Assembly (NCBI RefSeq): GCF_037201965.1
Contig: NZ_CP147518.1
Coordinates: 991,001 to 1,055,000, forward strand
DNA: 64,000 nucleotides
Direction: 5' to 3'
DNA from: Spirosoma sp. SC4-14
Lineage (GTDB): Bacteria; Bacteroidota; Bacteroidia; Cytophagales; Spirosomataceae
Below are positions 13,032-24,081 of the stretch, piece after piece (the first letter of the stretch is position 1; each line of letters starts with the position of its first letter). The translations under genes were made by a program, and so were the position numbers. The notes beneath the pieces are model-generated. The model was not told the DNA's origin, did no database searches, and saw only the letters and a program-made list of their open reading frames with translations.

Positions 13032-13098
13032 CTTTATCAGGTCTGGACGAGTCAAATTCCGGTTTGCCCGAATGCGATCGTTCCGGCTACCTATCGCC

Positions 13099-13773
13099 AT
13101 GAATATCTTAGAAATGAGCCAGACGCTGTTCTACCTGATTGAGCAGCAACCCAATTCTGAAAAAGCGGTTAACTACCTTCGCCAACAAGCCGATGCCCTA
13201 CAGGCGGGGCCGCAGGTTCCCGTATTTTATCGTGTTTTCACGGCAATGCCGCGTTTTGTTGGCAAACAACTAATTGTGGTACCATCCGATATGGCGTTTG
13301 CTTTGGAACGCCTTCGTCCGGGATTTACCGTGACCGACTGGACACTCGACCGATTGGCGCGGGTGTGGTGGTTGCTTCAACTGCCAGCCGATGATGAAGC
13401 GCACTATGTAAAAACAATTACGGAATTATTTAAGGCGGGTGAATTAAACGAATTGGTTGCGTTGTATTCGGCCTTGCCGGTGCTGGCTTTTCCGGAAGCA
13501 TGGCGCTTTCAGGCAACAGAAGGTATTCGTAATAACATTGCCGACGTACAATCGGCCATCATGTTGCATAATCCTTACCCTGCCGACTACTTCGACGAAG
13601 CAGCCTGGAATCAGTTGATTTTGAAAGCTTTTTTTACGGATAAAGACGTTACTCAGATTACCGGCCTGACCGAGCGCAAAAACGCCCGACTGGCTCACAC
13701 GCTGGCCGATTATGCTGCCGAACGTCGGGCTGCCGGGCGTAGTTTGCCCCCGCATATTGAAGAGTTAATGTAG
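13099..13773 (+). CDS. eboA: EboA domain-containing protein
   Basis: A largely helical, cytoplasmic protein of about 224 residues that I recognise as EboA. The diagnostic C-terminal part has LHNPYPADYFDEAAWNQLILKAFF, then AHTLADYAAERRAAGR close to the end. EboA belongs to the ebo cluster, found in cyanobacteria, Bacteroidota, some pseudomonads and eustigmatophyte plastids. The cluster is needed for moving some metabolite precursors, such as the scytonemin monomer, to the periplasm; the role of EboA itself is unknown. A start at 13072 would add nine residues. The rest of the cluster (eboB, eboC) resumes 1.6 kb downstream, after two genes on the other strand. Confidence 0.85.
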   Translation: MNILEMSQTLFYLIEQQPNSEKAVNYLRQQADALQAGPQVPVFYRVFTAMPRFVGKQLIVVPSDMAFALERLRPGFTVTDWTLDRLARVWWLLQLPADDEAHYVKTITELFKAGELNELVALYSALPVLAFPEAWRFQATEGIRNNIADVQSAIMLHNPYPADYFDEAAWNQLILKAFFTDKDVTQITGLTERKNARLAHTLADYAAERRAAGRSLPPHIEELM

Positions 13774-14525: not shown

Positions 14526-15188
14526 TTAGTTCGCTGCCTGTAAGTATGGCGATTGATTGAAAATTGCGGTGGTTGCTGCATCTACATCCTGTTGGGTAGA
14601 AACGTCGGCACCACGAACGGTAGCATCGTAAATAACAGTGAGTTGAGGTTCTGAGCCTGGAGTCGTAGCGGGCTGGTTTTTCAGATCTACTATCTGAATT
14701 TCCCAGTACTGATCGGCAACCTGATAGGTATAATAGCTCGGATAATACGGATAATAGCCACCAAACCCACCATAATAGCCGCCCCAATAGCCGCCATAGT
14801 AACCGTAGGGATTTAATCCTACACCCGTATACAGATTGTTAACCCTAATAATGGCAACGCCCAAATCGGCGGTGTCGCCACGAGCTACCCGTTGAAACCC
14901 ACGACTCGTTAGGGCACTCGCGACATTCGATACAAACCGGCTTTCGAGCGGCCCCAGGGTAGGTTCATAGCCCGTATTCGATTCGGTCACAACAGAGTCG
15001 GGAAGGCTATAGGTTTTATACTGACTGAAATTAATATTCCGATCGTAATTTGTGATATAAACCGGACTATCGGCGGGGCTTAAATCGTTGATGGCGTTCT
15101 CTTTACAGGCCGTAAGCCCTCCGCCAATTGTTAGCAGAAGTAGCACATAAAGTATCCATCGGTCCTTTTTTAGCTGTTGGAGTACCAT
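14526..15188 (-). CDS. DUF4136 domain lipoprotein
   Basis: A 220-residue lipoprotein. The start at 15188 places a hydrophobic segment at residues 11-24 and a lipobox LTAC with Cys28. The mature domain has the DUF4136 signature: an NFSQYKTYSLPDS motif near the N-terminus and a strand pattern ending in a paired C-terminal region. A Gly/Tyr-rich loop (about residues 123-155, e.g. YWGGYYGGFGGYYPYYPSYY) interrupts the domain and gives strong low-complexity DNA. DUF4136 proteins are envelope lipoproteins of unknown function. Co-transcribed with the barrel protein 5 bp downstream. Confidence 0.87.
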   Translation of the reverse strand: MVLQQLKKDRWILYVLLLLTIGGGLTACKENAINDLSPADSPVYITNYDRNINFSQYKTYSLPDSVVTESNTGYEPTLGPLESRFVSNVASALTSRGFQRVARGDTADLGVAIIRVNNLYTGVGLNPYGYYGGYWGGYYGGFGGYYPYYPSYYTYQVADQYWEIQIVDLKNQPATTPGSEPQLTVIYDATVRGADVSTQQDVDAATTAIFNQSPYLQAAN

Positions 15189-15418
15189 AGGTCTATTTGT
15201 TGTTTGGCATACCTGTCGAATAAGTATTCGACTAATTATATAACACCAGTATGGCATTAAAATTTTATATCTATTTATAAAACGAATGAGGTAATTAAGG
15301 GTTTGGAAAAAGTCGATTAAAATACGGCTAAAAATTCATGCAGGATGAAGACAGATTTTTGTGGAACTTTACCCCCTGATTTGGATTTTATTAGAATGCC
15401 TTTAACGCTGAATTACTC

Positions 15419-16351
15419 ATGAATTTTATGGACTCGATTCGTGGTATGTCGTTTTTCGATATGCACGTTCACATGACTTCCCGGACTACCGACGACTATC
15501 AGGCCATGGCCGATGCGGGCGTTGTTGCACTGATTGAACCAGCCTTCTGGCTCGGTCAGCCGCGTACGGGTGTTGATTCGTTTCGGGATTATTTTGCCAG
15601 TCTGGTCGGTTGGGAGCGCTTCCGGGCATCGCAGTTTGGTATTCGGCACTATTGTACCATTGGCCTTAACTCGAAAGAGGCTAATCAGGAAGAATTGGCC
15701 GAGCAGGTTATGGAAATTCTGCCATTATTCATCTATAAAGAAGGCGTAGTGGGTGTTGGCGAAATTGGCTTCGATGATCAGACGGCGGCCGAAGAAAAAT
15801 ACTACCGGGCGCAACTCGAACTGGCCAGAGAAGCTGGCCTTCCGGTGCAGATTCATACACCACACCGCGACAAAAAGCAGGGAACGAGCCGGAGCATGGA
15901 TATTGCCCTGGAGCATGGCATAGACCCCGGTATGGTAATTGTTGACCACAACAATGAGGAAACGGTGCGCGAAGTGCTGGATCGGGGTTTTTGGGCCGGG
16001 TTTACGATTTATCCGTTTACAAAAATGGGTAACGAACGTATGGTAGAGGTTGTGAAACAATATGGCCCTGACCATATTATGATCAATTCGGCTGCCGACT
16101 GGGGCATCAGCGATCCACTTGCCGTTCCGAAAACGGCCGCGCTGATGAAAGAGCGTGGAATATCGGACGAAGCCATACGCTTGGTAACCTTCACCAACGC
16201 CGTAACGGCTTTTGCGCAAAGTGGCCAGCTTAATCTGGAAGAATTGCTTCAGCCATTAGAGATTGACCAGAGCCAGCGGTATAATGGCAGTTCAATTTTA
16301 CGCGGTGGACAGGCTCCGCGAGTCGATAAAGAATCAACGATTATTAAATAA
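15419..16351 (+). CDS. eboB: TatD-like metal-dependent hydrolase EboB
   Basis: A 310-residue amidohydrolase-fold (TIM barrel) protein. Metal ligands are visible: HVH in FFDMHVHMTSR, Glu in GVGEIGFDD, His in VQIHTPHRDK, His in VIVDHNNEE and Asp in NSAADWG. Length, motif order and the following UbiA-like gene identify it as EboB of the ebo cluster rather than the DNase TatD, which is shorter and has different loops. The substrate is unknown; cluster-level data point to metabolite processing or export. The gene is followed by a 33-bp hairpin with G-tracts before eboC. Confidence 0.88.
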   Translation: MNFMDSIRGMSFFDMHVHMTSRTTDDYQAMADAGVVALIEPAFWLGQPRTGVDSFRDYFASLVGWERFRASQFGIRHYCTIGLNSKEANQEELAEQVMEILPLFIYKEGVVGVGEIGFDDQTAAEEKYYRAQLELAREAGLPVQIHTPHRDKKQGTSRSMDIALEHGIDPGMVIVDHNNEETVREVLDRGFWAGFTIYPFTKMGNERMVEVVKQYGPDHIMINSAADWGISDPLAVPKTAALMKERGISDEAIRLVTFTNAVTAFAQSGQLNLEELLQPLEIDQSQRYNGSSILRGGQAPRVDKESTIIK

Positions 16352-16354
16352 GGC

Positions 16355-16444
16355 GGGGAAATAGCGGGGTGTTGCGGGGAAGGCGGGGTATTGCATGGAT
16401 ATGCTATTCCCTGCAATACCCCGCCTTCCCCGCAACACCCCGCT
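16355..16444 (+). promoter_or_regulatory. 33-bp hairpin overlapping a four-tract G-quadruplex motif
   Basis: Bases 16363-16395 are the exact reverse complement of 16412-16444 (16-base loop). On the plus strand, four GGGG tracts occur at 16355, 16366, 16376 and 16385 with loops of 7, 6 and 5 bases, three of them inside the left arm. There is no T-tract. The right arm ends 10 bases before the eboC ATG, so it covers the ribosome-binding region. It could act as an attenuator or translation switch, or as a stabilising processing site. Confidence 0.7.
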
Positions 16445-16454
16445 CTCCTCGCAC

Positions 16455-17330
16455 ATGTTAAAAGCACTCCTCTCGCTCATGCGTCCTGCCAACCTGGTTA
16501 CGGCTATTGCCGATGTGCTGGCGGGTATGGCCATAGCCGGTTATTTTCTGATTCCGAATCCACCGCCGGCAGCTGTTGGCTGGTTGTCGCTGGCAACGGT
16601 TTGCCTGTATGGGGGAGGAGTCGTTTTTAATGATGTTTTTGATGCCGACCTCGACGCGATTGAGCGGCCCGAACGGGCAATTCCGAGTGGCGTTGTCAGT
16701 AAGAATACGGCCGCAGCACTAGGTGTTATTTTGCTGATGCTGGGCATAGTGTTCTCGTTTCTGGTTAATCAGACGGCGGGGATACTTGCAATTGCTATTG
16801 CCATTGCCTCGCTGGTTTATGACCGGTTTGGCAAACATCACAACATTCTTGGGCCAGTCAATATGGGCTTATGTCGCGGTCTGAATCTGCTTTTGGGCGT
16901 AAGTATCATTCCAGAGCAGGTGCTACCCTGGGCCTGGGTTGGTCTGGTGCCGATTGCCTACATTGCGGCCATAACCATGATCAGCCGGGGCGAAGTGCAT
17001 GGCGGTAATGTTGCTACACTGCGTTCGGCCGGACTGTTATATGCACTGGTAATTGGGTGCGTAGCGGCATTGGCCCAGCAACGGCAGCAGTTAGGAACTG
17101 CTTTTCCCTTTCTGGTACTGTTCGGATACTATATTTTTCCGCCACTCTGGCGTGCCGTTCGGGAACCGGTTGGTCGGAATATTGGCCTGGCCGTACGGGC
17201 GGGCGTTTTGTCGCTCATTGTTATGAATGCGGCCTGGGTGGCTGCTTTTGCTTCGTTTCCGCTAGCTCTGCTGGTTTTCTGTTTGTTGCCGCTTTCCCGG
17301 CTTCTGGCAAAGATTTTTGCTGTAACTTGA
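16455..17330 (+). CDS. eboC: UbiA-like prenyltransferase EboC
   Basis: A 291-residue integral membrane protein with about nine hydrophobic helices. It belongs to the UbiA superfamily, whose members transfer prenyl chains to aromatic or other acceptors. The first Asp-rich motif is NDVFDADLDAIERPERAIPSG (around residues 60-80), and the second region is YDRFGKHHNILGPVNMGLCRGLNLLLG. Position directly after eboB marks it as EboC. The start at 16455 is chosen because 20 further upstream codons come from the hairpin rather than coding sequence. EboC is thought to anchor or transfer the cluster's substrate at the inner membrane. eboD, eboE and eboF do not follow here. Confidence 0.9.
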   Translation: MLKALLSLMRPANLVTAIADVLAGMAIAGYFLIPNPPPAAVGWLSLATVCLYGGGVVFNDVFDADLDAIERPERAIPSGVVSKNTAAALGVILLMLGIVFSFLVNQTAGILAIAIAIASLVYDRFGKHHNILGPVNMGLCRGLNLLLGVSIIPEQVLPWAWVGLVPIAYIAAITMISRGEVHGGNVATLRSAGLLYALVIGCVAALAQQRQQLGTAFPFLVLFGYYIFPPLWRAVREPVGRNIGLAVRAGVLSLIVMNAAWVAAFASFPLALLVFCLLPLSRLLAKIFAVT

Positions 17331-17391
17331 TGCTCAATGGGCTTCAATACCCATTTAAATGCGTCAATTCGGGCAAGTTCTGCCAAATTCT

Positions 17392-18216
17392 ATGAAAAAA
17401 CTCTGTTTCGTACTACTTCTACTCTCCCAGGTTGTATTTGCTCAACGGTATAAAGCTCGTTCTGTTACGGGGTTGTTGGGTGCATTTGGAGCGGAGGTCG
17501 AATTGGTGAAGCAAACATTGAAAAAACCAAAGACAGTCCTCATCGACGGGGTTTCCTTCACAACCGGTCGCATTGGAAACCATAAGGTTGTAGTGGCCGA
17601 AACGGGTATCGGCAAAGTAAATGCAGCTATGACTACCACGTTGCTCCTCGATCATTTTCGACCCGAGCGGGTACTCTTTACGGGGATTGCGGGTGGAACA
17701 AATCCTGATTTGCAACCCGGCGATATTGTGATTGCTGGTCGAACGGCGCATCATGACTATAGTTCGATTACTGATAAAAATACACCGACGCGTCAGACGC
17801 GAAATGCCATTACCAAACAGTTTAATCCAGTTTATTTTCCTGCTGATTCGGCCTTGCTTCGGTTAGCAGAATTGGTTGCAGGAGGCTTAAAACTGGAGGG
17901 AATACCACTTGCATCGGGTGGGGTATCCGACCGACCGGTTAAGGTCATGACCGGAACAGTGGTTACCGGCGATGTATTTGTAGCGTCTCCTGTTAAAGTG
18001 AGTAGTCTCCGTTCCGATTTCGCGGCCGATGCGACGGAGATGGAAGGGGCTGCTATTGCGCAGGTATGTTATCAGATTCAGGTTCCTCATCTGATTATCC
18101 GTAGCCTGAGCGACAGGGCCGACGCCGAAGCTCATATTGCCTACGACAAATTTTATCCAACAGCCGCCCGGAATTCGGCCAAACTGGTCATTGCCATCGT
18201 TCAGGCGTTACCGTAA
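17392..18216 (+). CDS. Exported 5'-methylthioadenosine/S-adenosylhomocysteine nucleosidase-like protein
   Basis: A 274-residue purine-nucleoside phosphorylase-fold protein of the MTAN (Pfs/MtnN) type. Key residues are present: Glu in GLLGAFGAEVELV, the glycine-rich FTGIAGG, the ligand-binding TEMEGAAIAQVC and the catalytic Asp in SLSDRADAE. The enzyme class removes adenine from MTA and SAH. Unlike cytoplasmic Pfs, this one has a clear signal peptide (MKKLCFVLLLLSQVVFA) when started at 17392, so it should work in the periplasm. It sits 61 bp after eboC on the same strand and may be read with it. Confidence 0.88.
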   Translation: MKKLCFVLLLLSQVVFAQRYKARSVTGLLGAFGAEVELVKQTLKKPKTVLIDGVSFTTGRIGNHKVVVAETGIGKVNAAMTTTLLLDHFRPERVLFTGIAGGTNPDLQPGDIVIAGRTAHHDYSSITDKNTPTRQTRNAITKQFNPVYFPADSALLRLAELVAGGLKLEGIPLASGGVSDRPVKVMTGTVVTGDVFVASPVKVSSLRSDFAADATEMEGAAIAQVCYQIQVPHLIIRSLSDRADAEAHIAYDKFYPTAARNSAKLVIAIVQALP

Positions 18217-18336
18217 TTTTTAAGTAGGCTGCATTATCCCGAAATACCTTTCCCTCATGAAATTGGGCCTTTTTTGCCTGCCAGATAGTTTTTGTCCATA
18301 TTGAACAACACTACCTGCCAGAAGGCTTATTTTCTG

Positions 18337-19533
18337 ATGCTAACGTTGCCTGCACAGTTGCCCAATAATCCGTTTCGGTCGGTCTGGTGGGCCGGTTATG
18401 AGTGTACAGACCAACTCAATTGCTTTGGAAACCGGGTCGATTTTCTACCCATGACGGGCCATTTGCAGTTGCTAAAAGACGACTATCGGCGCCTTGAACC
18501 GTTTTCTATTCAGACCGTTCGGGAAGGGCTTCGGTGGAGTCAGGTCGAAAAAACGGCCTATCAATACAACTGGAACGATGTTGAACAGATGTTGCTGGAA
18601 GGGCATCGGCAAGGGATTCAGCAAGTATGGGACTTGTGCCACTTTGGCTATCCCGACGATCTGACACCCCTGCATCCGATGTTTGCCCGCCGGTTTGCAG
18701 CGTTCTGCCGCGCATTTGTGCATTTCTACCGCGATCGCTATCCCGACGAGGAACTGATTGTAACACCTATCAATGAAGTTAGCTTTATGTCGTGGCTGGG
18801 TGGCGATGCCTGTGGCACATCGCCCTACTGCACCAAACAAGGCTGGGAAGTGAAAATCGGGCTGATGCGTGCATACATTGAGGGCGTAGCGGCCATGCGT
18901 GAGATCGATCCGTCTATTCGAATCCTGACTACAGAGCCTCTGGTACAGATGGTTCCACCCTTAAATGCAACCGAGCAGGAACTTATTGATGCGGCCATTG
19001 CCGACGAAAACCAGTTTCAATCGGTTGACATGCTGGCAGGCTATGTTGCTCCCGAACTGGGCGGGATGCCCGAATATCTCGATATACTGGGTTTCAACTA
19101 TTACTACAATAATCAGTGGATTAATAACACTGACCAGTTTTTAGGATGGAATGACGCGGTTCCTGATCCTCGCTGGTTTCCTTTGAGTCGATTGCTTACA
19201 AAAGCTTATCGACGCTACAAGAGGCCAATTGTATTATCCGAAACCAGCCATCCGGGTATCGATCGACCGGTCTGGATAGAAATGATTGGGCGGGAGTGTG
19301 CCAAAATTCTGGAATTGGGTATTCCCCTTTGGGGTATTTGCCTGTATCCAATCATTGACCGGCCCGATTGGGATCATCCCGAACATTGGCATCATTCGGG
19401 TTTATGGGATGCCGATTTGTCCGTTAAACCTCCTGGTCGAATACTTTATGAACCATATGCCGAAGCCTTGTTACGCGCAGAAAACCTTGTTGAGCAGGTT
19501 AGTTCATCGCAACCGTATCTAACTAGTAAGTGA
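18337..19533 (+). CDS. Family 1 glycoside hydrolase-like protein
   Basis: A protein of about 398 residues with the (beta/alpha)8 fold of clan A glycoside hydrolases, closest to GH1-like proteins. The acid/base motif is TPINEVSF near residue 150, and the probable nucleophile is in VLSETSHPG near 305. The pattern LRWSQVEK and the aromatic +1/-1 site residues (WDLCHFGYPDDLTP) are also GH1-like. It has no signal peptide. ATG 18337 is preferred over the TTG at 18292. It is 120 bp after the nucleosidase gene and is followed by a strong terminator. The substrate is unknown. Confidence 0.8.
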   Translation: MLTLPAQLPNNPFRSVWWAGYECTDQLNCFGNRVDFLPMTGHLQLLKDDYRRLEPFSIQTVREGLRWSQVEKTAYQYNWNDVEQMLLEGHRQGIQQVWDLCHFGYPDDLTPLHPMFARRFAAFCRAFVHFYRDRYPDEELIVTPINEVSFMSWLGGDACGTSPYCTKQGWEVKIGLMRAYIEGVAAMREIDPSIRILTTEPLVQMVPPLNATEQELIDAAIADENQFQSVDMLAGYVAPELGGMPEYLDILGFNYYYNNQWINNTDQFLGWNDAVPDPRWFPLSRLLTKAYRRYKRPIVLSETSHPGIDRPVWIEMIGRECAKILELGIPLWGICLYPIIDRPDWDHPEHWHHSGLWDADLSVKPPGRILYEPYAEALLRAENLVEQVSSSQPYLTSK

Positions 19534-24025: not shown

Positions 24026-24081
24026 TGTTTACAAACACGAAGGGGGCCGTTGATCAACGGCCCCCTTCGTGTTTGTAAACA
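24026..24081. terminator. Bidirectional terminator, perfect 28-bp palindrome
   Basis: Bases 24026-24053 are the exact reverse complement of 24054-24081 with no unpaired loop in the DNA. It lies between the convergent DciA-like and polysaccharide deacetylase genes and ends three bases before the deacetylase stop codon. Confidence 0.8.

Follow-up and report, generated by a model that had tools for sequence, protein, structure and literature searches.

A hairpin kept in place between eboB and eboC in Spirosoma while its letters change: a candidate duplex boundary between cistrons

Introduction

Repetitive extragenic palindromic sequences and bacterial interspersed mosaic elements (REP/BIME) are intergenic palindromes, some of which impede mRNA decay within operons; REPs have a shared consensus and tags and often occur with a RAYT. 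The RNase III sites of phage T7 early mRNA are long intercistronic duplexes at which the duplex counts for more than its letters and cleavage is known. Here we analyse a hairpin that lies between the genes eboB and eboC of Spirosoma sp. SC4-14, in a stretch of 64,000 nucleotides (the window; contig NZ_CP147518.1, positions 991,001 to 1,055,000, forward strand), and compare it with the same spacer in other members of the genus.

In E. coli operons, protective RNA structures go with differential decay of segments in one polycistronic mRNA (Dar and Sorek 2018, PMC5927463). TAACTGA repeats (MacGregor 2015, PMC4679880) are short-word repeats near start codons, present also in five Bacteroidetes and with a possible post-transcriptional role. 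Among the published cases considered, the closest is that of the Xanthomonas and Nostoc heptamer repeats GGGNATC and GGGGA(C/T)T (Rehm et al. 2015, PMC4692102), which also occupy gaps between co-directional genes, close to stop codons, and in some cases are arranged as inverted repeats; two Xanthomonas genomes are listed there with 70 and 75 convergent pairs forming inverted repeats. Searches of open-licence PMC papers listed none that, judged by its title and the opening of its abstract, describes the present hairpins for Spirosoma or Bacteroidetes.

We show that the position and the pairing of the hairpin are kept in most Spirosoma species, while its letters either drift or come from a different repeat family. 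Our preferred reading, to which we give a probability of about 0.46, is an intercistronic hairpin at a cistron boundary, selected for its shape and not for its letters, that would insulate neighbouring cistrons on one mRNA.

Results

A 33-bp hairpin fills the eboB-eboC spacer

The host genome (8.1 Mb, labelled G000 in the comparisons) has 103 nt between the eboB stop and the eboC start, laid out as follows in window positions.

15419 to 16351, forward strand: eboB, a TatD-like metal-dependent hydrolase (Pfam TatD_DNase, 67.7 bits), with its TAA stop at 16349-16351
16353 to 16359, forward strand: left strand of an outer 7-bp helix, including the first GGGG tract at 16355-16358 (RNAfold of 16352-16457)
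16355 to 16388, forward strand: G-quadruplex motif of four GGGG tracts with loops of 7, 6 and 5 (sequence and folding)
16363 to 16395, forward strand: left arm of the perfect 33-bp hairpin, with unevenly spaced GCGGGG words (inverted-repeat search and folding)
16396 to 16411, forward strand: loop region, with a 3-bp inner helix predicted (folding)
16412 to 16444, forward strand: right arm of the hairpin (inverted-repeat search and folding)
16445 to 16454, forward strand: 10-nt C/T-rich tail without a T-tract, of which 16446-16452 is paired in the outer helix (sequence and folding)
16455 to 17330, forward strand: eboC, a UbiA-like prenyltransferase (NCBIfam NF035940; start placed by alignment with congeners)

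The initial annotation of this DNA, made from its letters, had described the four GGGG tracts, a perfect 33-bp inverted repeat and a hairpin ending 10 nt before eboC. The tracts (16355-16358, 16366-16369, 16376-16379 and 16385-16388) and their loops were confirmed to the base, the two arms are exact reverse complements separated by a 16-nt gap, and the eboC ATG at 16455 indeed stands 10 nt past the right arm. The inverted repeat can be extended to 37 nt per arm at 97%, and it is the longest of the 10 inverted repeats of the window in a search with arms up to 200 nt apart. The predicted minimum free energy of the spacer RNA is -93.5 kcal/mol (z -14.3), and none of 200 dinucleotide shuffles folded as low. 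In the predicted structure the outer helix pairs 16353-16359 with 16446-16452, and the fold thereby reaches 2 nt before the eboC start. The left arm ends, at 16395, with the A of an in-frame ATG that the initial annotation does not mention, and a mechanical caller of open reading frames starts eboC there, 20 codons early and inside the hairpin.

The hairpin is kept at the same spacer across Spirosoma

The genus set comprised 36 genomes. eboC was found in 35 of them, the genome without a match (G012) being 80% complete, and eboB orthologues upstream of eboC in the congeners are 89-96% identical. No eboB was found upstream of eboC in G002, G007 and G010, and the two genes are about 0.9-1.2 kb apart in G019, G021 and G045; the stretch between them in G021 and G019 reads like an inserted gene. 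Leaving aside one further genome that is taken up in the Discussion, the remaining 28 have eboB-eboC spacers of 45-142 nt, and 24 of the 28 fold below all 200 dinucleotide shuffles. A stem was located in 26 of the 27 spacers scanned (G044 lay outside the scan). The median distance is 4 nt from the stop codon to the stem and 11 nt from the stem to the next start; in two other spacers measured in the same way these medians are 9 and 6 nt, and 19 and 14 nt.

The letters are not kept with the position. Many eboB-eboC spacers use AGAGYGAA-like words, others AATGTAT-like or GTGTCGGGTT-like words (by reading), and GCGGGG occurs only in G000. Compared with the 26 others, the spacer of that genome showed no similarity above the level of shuffles (best z 2.2). 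Single-linkage clustering joined 22 of the 27 spacers, such links being inflated by low-complexity repeats; G000 and G048 stayed unlinked, and G022, G047 and G013 formed a separate group. On the 3′ side, further repeat units frequently continue unpaired as far as the start codon; they are rich in C and T and contain little G, so that the 5′ arm could pair in shifted registers.

Similar hairpins are kept at other gene junctions

The element is not specific to ebo: hairpins of the same kind recur at certain gene junctions across the genus. We surveyed 2 Mb from four congeneric genomes in 400-kb stretches (two from G000, one each from G017, G018 and G001) with a simple gene caller. Near-perfect hairpins with a stem score of at least 14 numbered 258, of which 146 lay in co-directional, 85 in convergent and 15 in divergent gaps and 12 in genes, and mononucleotide-shuffled gaps gave 1 hairpin in all. 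A 400-kb stretch of the outgroup G028, from another family of the order, held 23 (12 convergent, 7 co-directional, 2 divergent, 2 in genes). Hairpins that fill their spacer, lying at most 25 nt from the stop and at most 30 nt from the next start, made up 44 of the 146 co-directional cases and none of the 7 in G028; the eboB-eboC hairpin of G000 is not among the 44 because the gene caller began eboC inside it.

As a base rate, 131 of 442 co-directional gaps of 40-150 nt in the five 400-kb stretches of the four genomes have a fold lower than every one of 100 shuffles; in the G028 stretch the figure is 9 of 87. From ten spacer-filling hairpins of G000, four junctions were picked together before the results were known, and three of them were scored against 100 shuffles each. 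The spacer between leuD and a citramalate-synthase-like gene (nearest model citramalate synthase, 690 bits, under the cut-off of 950) was matched in 30 of the 36 genomes, and all 29 scored among its 30 loci, one gap being 0, fold significantly. Between ribH and an aspartokinase gene, with 34 genomes matched, 25 of 30 loci do so. Downstream of purH lies a gene that we read as an acyltransferase, with no NCBIfam match; 20 loci were sampled among the 34 genomes with a match, and 16 of the 19 scored fold significantly (G046 was not scored, and in G009, G040 and G043 the start is not ATG at the cut, which leaves those spacer ends uncertain). At this purH spacer at least two distinct repeat families, a GATTTATATGATTTAGCTGA type and a TGTCATGCTGACGAAGGAAGCATCTT type, alternate between species, and further families stand in G011 and in G023/G043 (all by eye). 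With G000 left out and eboB-eboC entered as 23/26 (without the weak G044), Fisher tests of each set against the base rate gave p from 6e-6 to 1e-14, values that ignore kinship, since the genomes are related and most rows of one spacer may be inherited. Hairpins at given junctions are thus kept far above the base rate, partly through a change of repeat family.

Distant members of the genus share about 72% mean amino acid identity, and a recurrence test at the same junctions in distant pairs met too few shared gene pairs at that distance. At 140 junctions of the sister pair G018/G001, 11 have the hairpin in both genomes, 2 and 5 in one of them, and 122 in neither. The eboB-eboC pair of the G000b stretch lay outside this comparison of genome pairs, since the gene caller placed the eboC start within the hairpin. 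Beyond the genus, a strict search for AGAGYGAA-type runs, with one genome per species, gave at least 119 stretches, of which 80 were examined. Among the matches listed, the run served as the 5′ arm of a hairpin in 21 of 31 oriented cases from Spirosoma and in 14 of 19 from Fibrisoma, Fibrella, Larkinella and Arsenicibacter; likewise among the matches listed, the figures were 3 of 10 for Dyadobacter and Emticicia, 0 of 5 for Hymenobacter and Pontibacter, 4 of 72 for other Bacteroidota and 1 of 29 for others. Use of the hairpin looks like a trait of Spirosoma and its near relatives.

Where hairpins are densest, and termination

Convergent gaps, where terminators are expected, have the highest hairpin density (85 of the 258 hairpins in 32 of 264 kb of gap). 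This speaks for a terminator or attenuator lacking a T-tract, which would partly stop RNA polymerase before eboC. At the junctions studied here, a T-run follows the stem in few spacers: TTTT within 12 nt past the stem occurs in 1 of 26 eboB-eboC spacers with a stem, and in 0 of 28 and 0 of 24 of two other spacers with a stem found. The initial annotation had already remarked on the missing T-tract, and the comparison bears it out in the host spacer and in nearly all relatives with a stem. With only 10 nt between the hairpin and eboC, a promoter does not fit there, and a complete stop of transcription would shut eboC off. Such a stop would also be odd between leuD and the citramalate-synthase-like gene, a pair that seems to belong to a single pathway. 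A terminator or attenuator of this kind before eboC is improbable in our judgement. A simple T-tract terminator was rejected, as a stable hairpin is present but the T-tract is absent.

Repeats, loop inversion and turnover

The arms are often quasi-tandem, with periods of 7-8. Among spacer-filling co-directional stems of at least 18 bp, 18 of 37 have quasi-tandem 5′ arms (p<0.02, shuffling); the counts are 6 of 62 for the other co-directional stems and 8 of 63 for the convergent ones. In three orthologous sets the figures for stems of at least 16 bp are 13/18, 15/18 and 9/10, mostly at lag 8. In the host spacer, no significant self-match at lag 10 was found in 16352-16395 (shuffling, p 0.35).

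Template switching leaves a footprint in which loops are inverted and arms are homogenised (PMC8604942, PMC8794818). We compared the sister genomes G018 and G001, whose paired genes have a mean amino acid identity of 96.6%. The G018 stretch holds 82 hairpins of score at least 12, of which 60 could be mapped to G001. Where both loops are at least 8 nt long (n=31), 21 have the same orientation, 6 are inverted and 4 are ambiguous. At eboB-eboC, the G039 loop matches those of G041 and G009 best when they are reverse-complemented (14 vs 4), and the G047 and G013 loops are likewise inverted (24 vs 8). Loop pairs past the threshold were 4 forward and 5 inverted for eboB-eboC (null 0.8 each), 13 and 15 for leuD (null 1.2 and 1.1), and 29 and 6 for ribH (null 2.2 and 0.6).

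These data bear on the main rival explanation, a serious one, in which the palindrome is neutral and perpetuates itself: slippage and template switching would make and repair hairpins that survive where they are harmless, as behind stop codons, without any function for eboB and eboC. The inverted loops of the sister genomes, and arms that are altered and still paired, match template switching as described in the same studies (PMC8604942, PMC8794818). Dispersed hairpin families with empty sites exist, the scarcity of hairpins in genes and divergent gaps fits tolerance, and outside one dispersed family there are few clean losses between the sisters, so that inheritance explains part of the persistence. 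Neutrality fits less well with four given spacers that keep the hairpin in most of the genus at about 72% amino acid identity, or with species that hold another repeat family at the same spacer, and tolerance alone is silent on which junctions keep hairpins. On balance we regard neutral persistence as rather unlikely.

Two improbable readings: a mobile element and a G-quadruplex switch

A mobile REP-like or miniature inverted-repeat transposable element (MITE)-like insertion between eboB and eboC would account for three partial relatives of the hairpin in the genome, and other hairpin families of the genus are dispersed with empty sites. In a search of its own genome, however, the ebo element gave no shared consensus, and the three other places match it partly, at 76-89% identity. 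The sole genome match to a Y1_Tnp (IS200/RAYT-type) transposase (G000:C1:2293155-2293499) is distant, about 1.3 Mb from the ebo hairpin, and other species of the genus keep a hairpin at this position that is spelled differently. We consider such an insertion very improbable.

One dispersed hairpin family was seen in the G018 and G000 stretches, with a core GTGCCACGGTT, a loop often of 18 nt, and AACCGTGGCAC; it looks mobile and REP/MITE-like because several of its sites are empty in the sister genome G001. In the G017 stretch, another family, ACCCCACCCCAACCCCTCCCC...GGGGAGGGG, has four copies in 400 kb, in co-directional spacers.

The initial annotation had proposed that the RNA folds either as a G-quadruplex or as a hairpin, and that this switch sets the level of EboC relative to EboB. 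The hairpin half of the proposal stands, with a fold far beyond chance, and since the hairpin keeps its position in much of the genus, it may plausibly affect eboC relative to eboB. The G-quadruplex half fared worse. Across the 800 kb of G000 examined, the strict motif (four GGGG tracts, loops up to 7) has a single occurrence, the ebo site, and among the 28 congeneric eboB-eboC spacers it is present in 1, that of G000; four GGG tracts with loops up to 12 occur in 2 of the 28. With a G-quadruplex energy model switched on, the full spacer was predicted to form the same hairpin and no G-quadruplex. For shorter RNAs the prediction differs: the G-quadruplex is favoured when the RNA ends at 16395 (-24.4 vs -6.8 kcal/mol) or at 16420 (-31.9 vs -28.9 kcal/mol), and none is predicted when it ends at 16424. 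On this model a G-quadruplex could exist only during transcription, before the RNA has grown to about 16424, and to act as a switch it would have to outlast the synthesis of its own complement within about 40 nt. Xanthomonas and Nostoc G-rich tandem repeats near stop codons form G-quadruplexes in vitro (PMC4692102). Even so, we give the switch hardly any credence. The G-quadruplex was rejected as a conserved element, and the likeliest account of the motif is that it comes along with the GCGGGG word of G000, because the structure is absent from the predicted full-length fold and the motif is rare in congeneric spacers. As a separate observation, the 400-kb stretch of G017 contains 17 four-tract GGGG motifs.

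Other features of the window

EboC passes its equivalog model NF035940 with 404.8 bits against a cut-off of 250. At 13072-13773 lies an EboA homologue that scores above the cut-off of the domain model (170 bits against 50) and below that of the family model (211.3 bits against 320). A search of 15000-18500 against Rfam returned 19 matches up to E = 1, all to microRNA-precursor models and under the gathering score. Elsewhere in the window, 24026-24081 is a loop-free perfect 56-nt palindrome between convergent gene ends, and the perfect 30-bp inverted repeat at 2304-2372 seems to have convergent genes on its two sides as well.

Discussion

We propose that slippage in repeats and template switching between arms would recreate near-perfect stems, and that selection would act on the duplex rather than on its letters. 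Such a duplex might block 3′-to-5′ decay, serve as an RNase III-type cleavage site, or uncouple downstream translation from ribosomes that terminate upstream. In the ebo case, the level of EboC would be set apart from that of EboB, probably below it. Each of the three is a candidate way in which a duplex of any sequence may act at a cistron boundary. An RNase III gene is present in the genome. About two turns of perfect or near-perfect duplex, as RNase III would call for, are available in the 33 bp here and lacking in some relatives. Uncoupling of translation is in line with a review (PMC12548453) that describes a negative correlation between translational coupling and RNA structure immediately past the first gene's stop codon. 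For the same reason we set aside a hairpin that would span stop and start so as to promote re-initiation.

Several points weigh against selection for an insulating hairpin. The comparison with relatives suggested in the initial annotation found the hairpin in most genomes that have the gene pair, but in 1 of 29 (G006) eboB and eboC abut, with no spacer and no hairpin, and in 4 of 29 the fold is weak (G022, G008, G048 and G044, reached by 6, 2, 14 and 2 of 200 shuffles). Stems in the relatives range from 9 to 36 bp by the stem finder, several being under 20 bp, which is short for a classical RNase III site. The comparison spacers were chosen since G000 has a hairpin there. Twelve of the 60 mapped hairpins of G018 have no related hairpin in G001; 5 of the 12 retain arm sequence that pairs too poorly, and in 7, mostly of one dispersed family, the arm is gone. 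Turnover at this level makes inheritance and self-repair harder to exclude, and so weakens the case for selection a little and strengthens that for a neutral palindrome. Every functional step is inferred from sequence, and palindromes that repair themselves might last with no role at all, being tolerated only where no gene or promoter lies.

With these points counted, the shape-selected insulating hairpin remains our preferred reading. Its wider form is put forward more tentatively, as a possibility for Spirosoma and its near relatives: a sequence-agnostic RNA element, in which a stop-to-start duplex at certain gene junctions would be selected as a shape only, its letters taken from any repeat family, its pairing kept by template switching, and unrelated hairpins would replace one another at one site. 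If this is true, searches for regulatory RNAs by shared letters or alignment covariation would miss a class in this group, because position and pairing are kept without alignable sequence. The genus would also offer a natural system for watching template switching make and repair RNA hairpins, and bacterial use of plain duplexes as cistron boundaries would become testable.

Set beside the known systems, the ebo element is an intergenic palindrome as REP/BIME elements are, but no shared consensus was found for it. Like the T7 RNase III sites, where cleavage is known, the Spirosoma hairpins are predicted to form long duplexes between cistrons. The protective structures of E. coli operons differ in being generally within coding regions and frequently conserved (PMC5927463). 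TAACTGA repeats (PMC4679880) are one-word direct repeats with next to no predicted pairing, unlike hairpins that run from stop to start. The heptamer repeats of Xanthomonas and Nostoc (PMC4692102) use one word per lineage and are proposed to form G-quadruplexes; in Spirosoma, by contrast, the words vary by species and by spacer, the G tracts are dispensable, and the hairpin persists.
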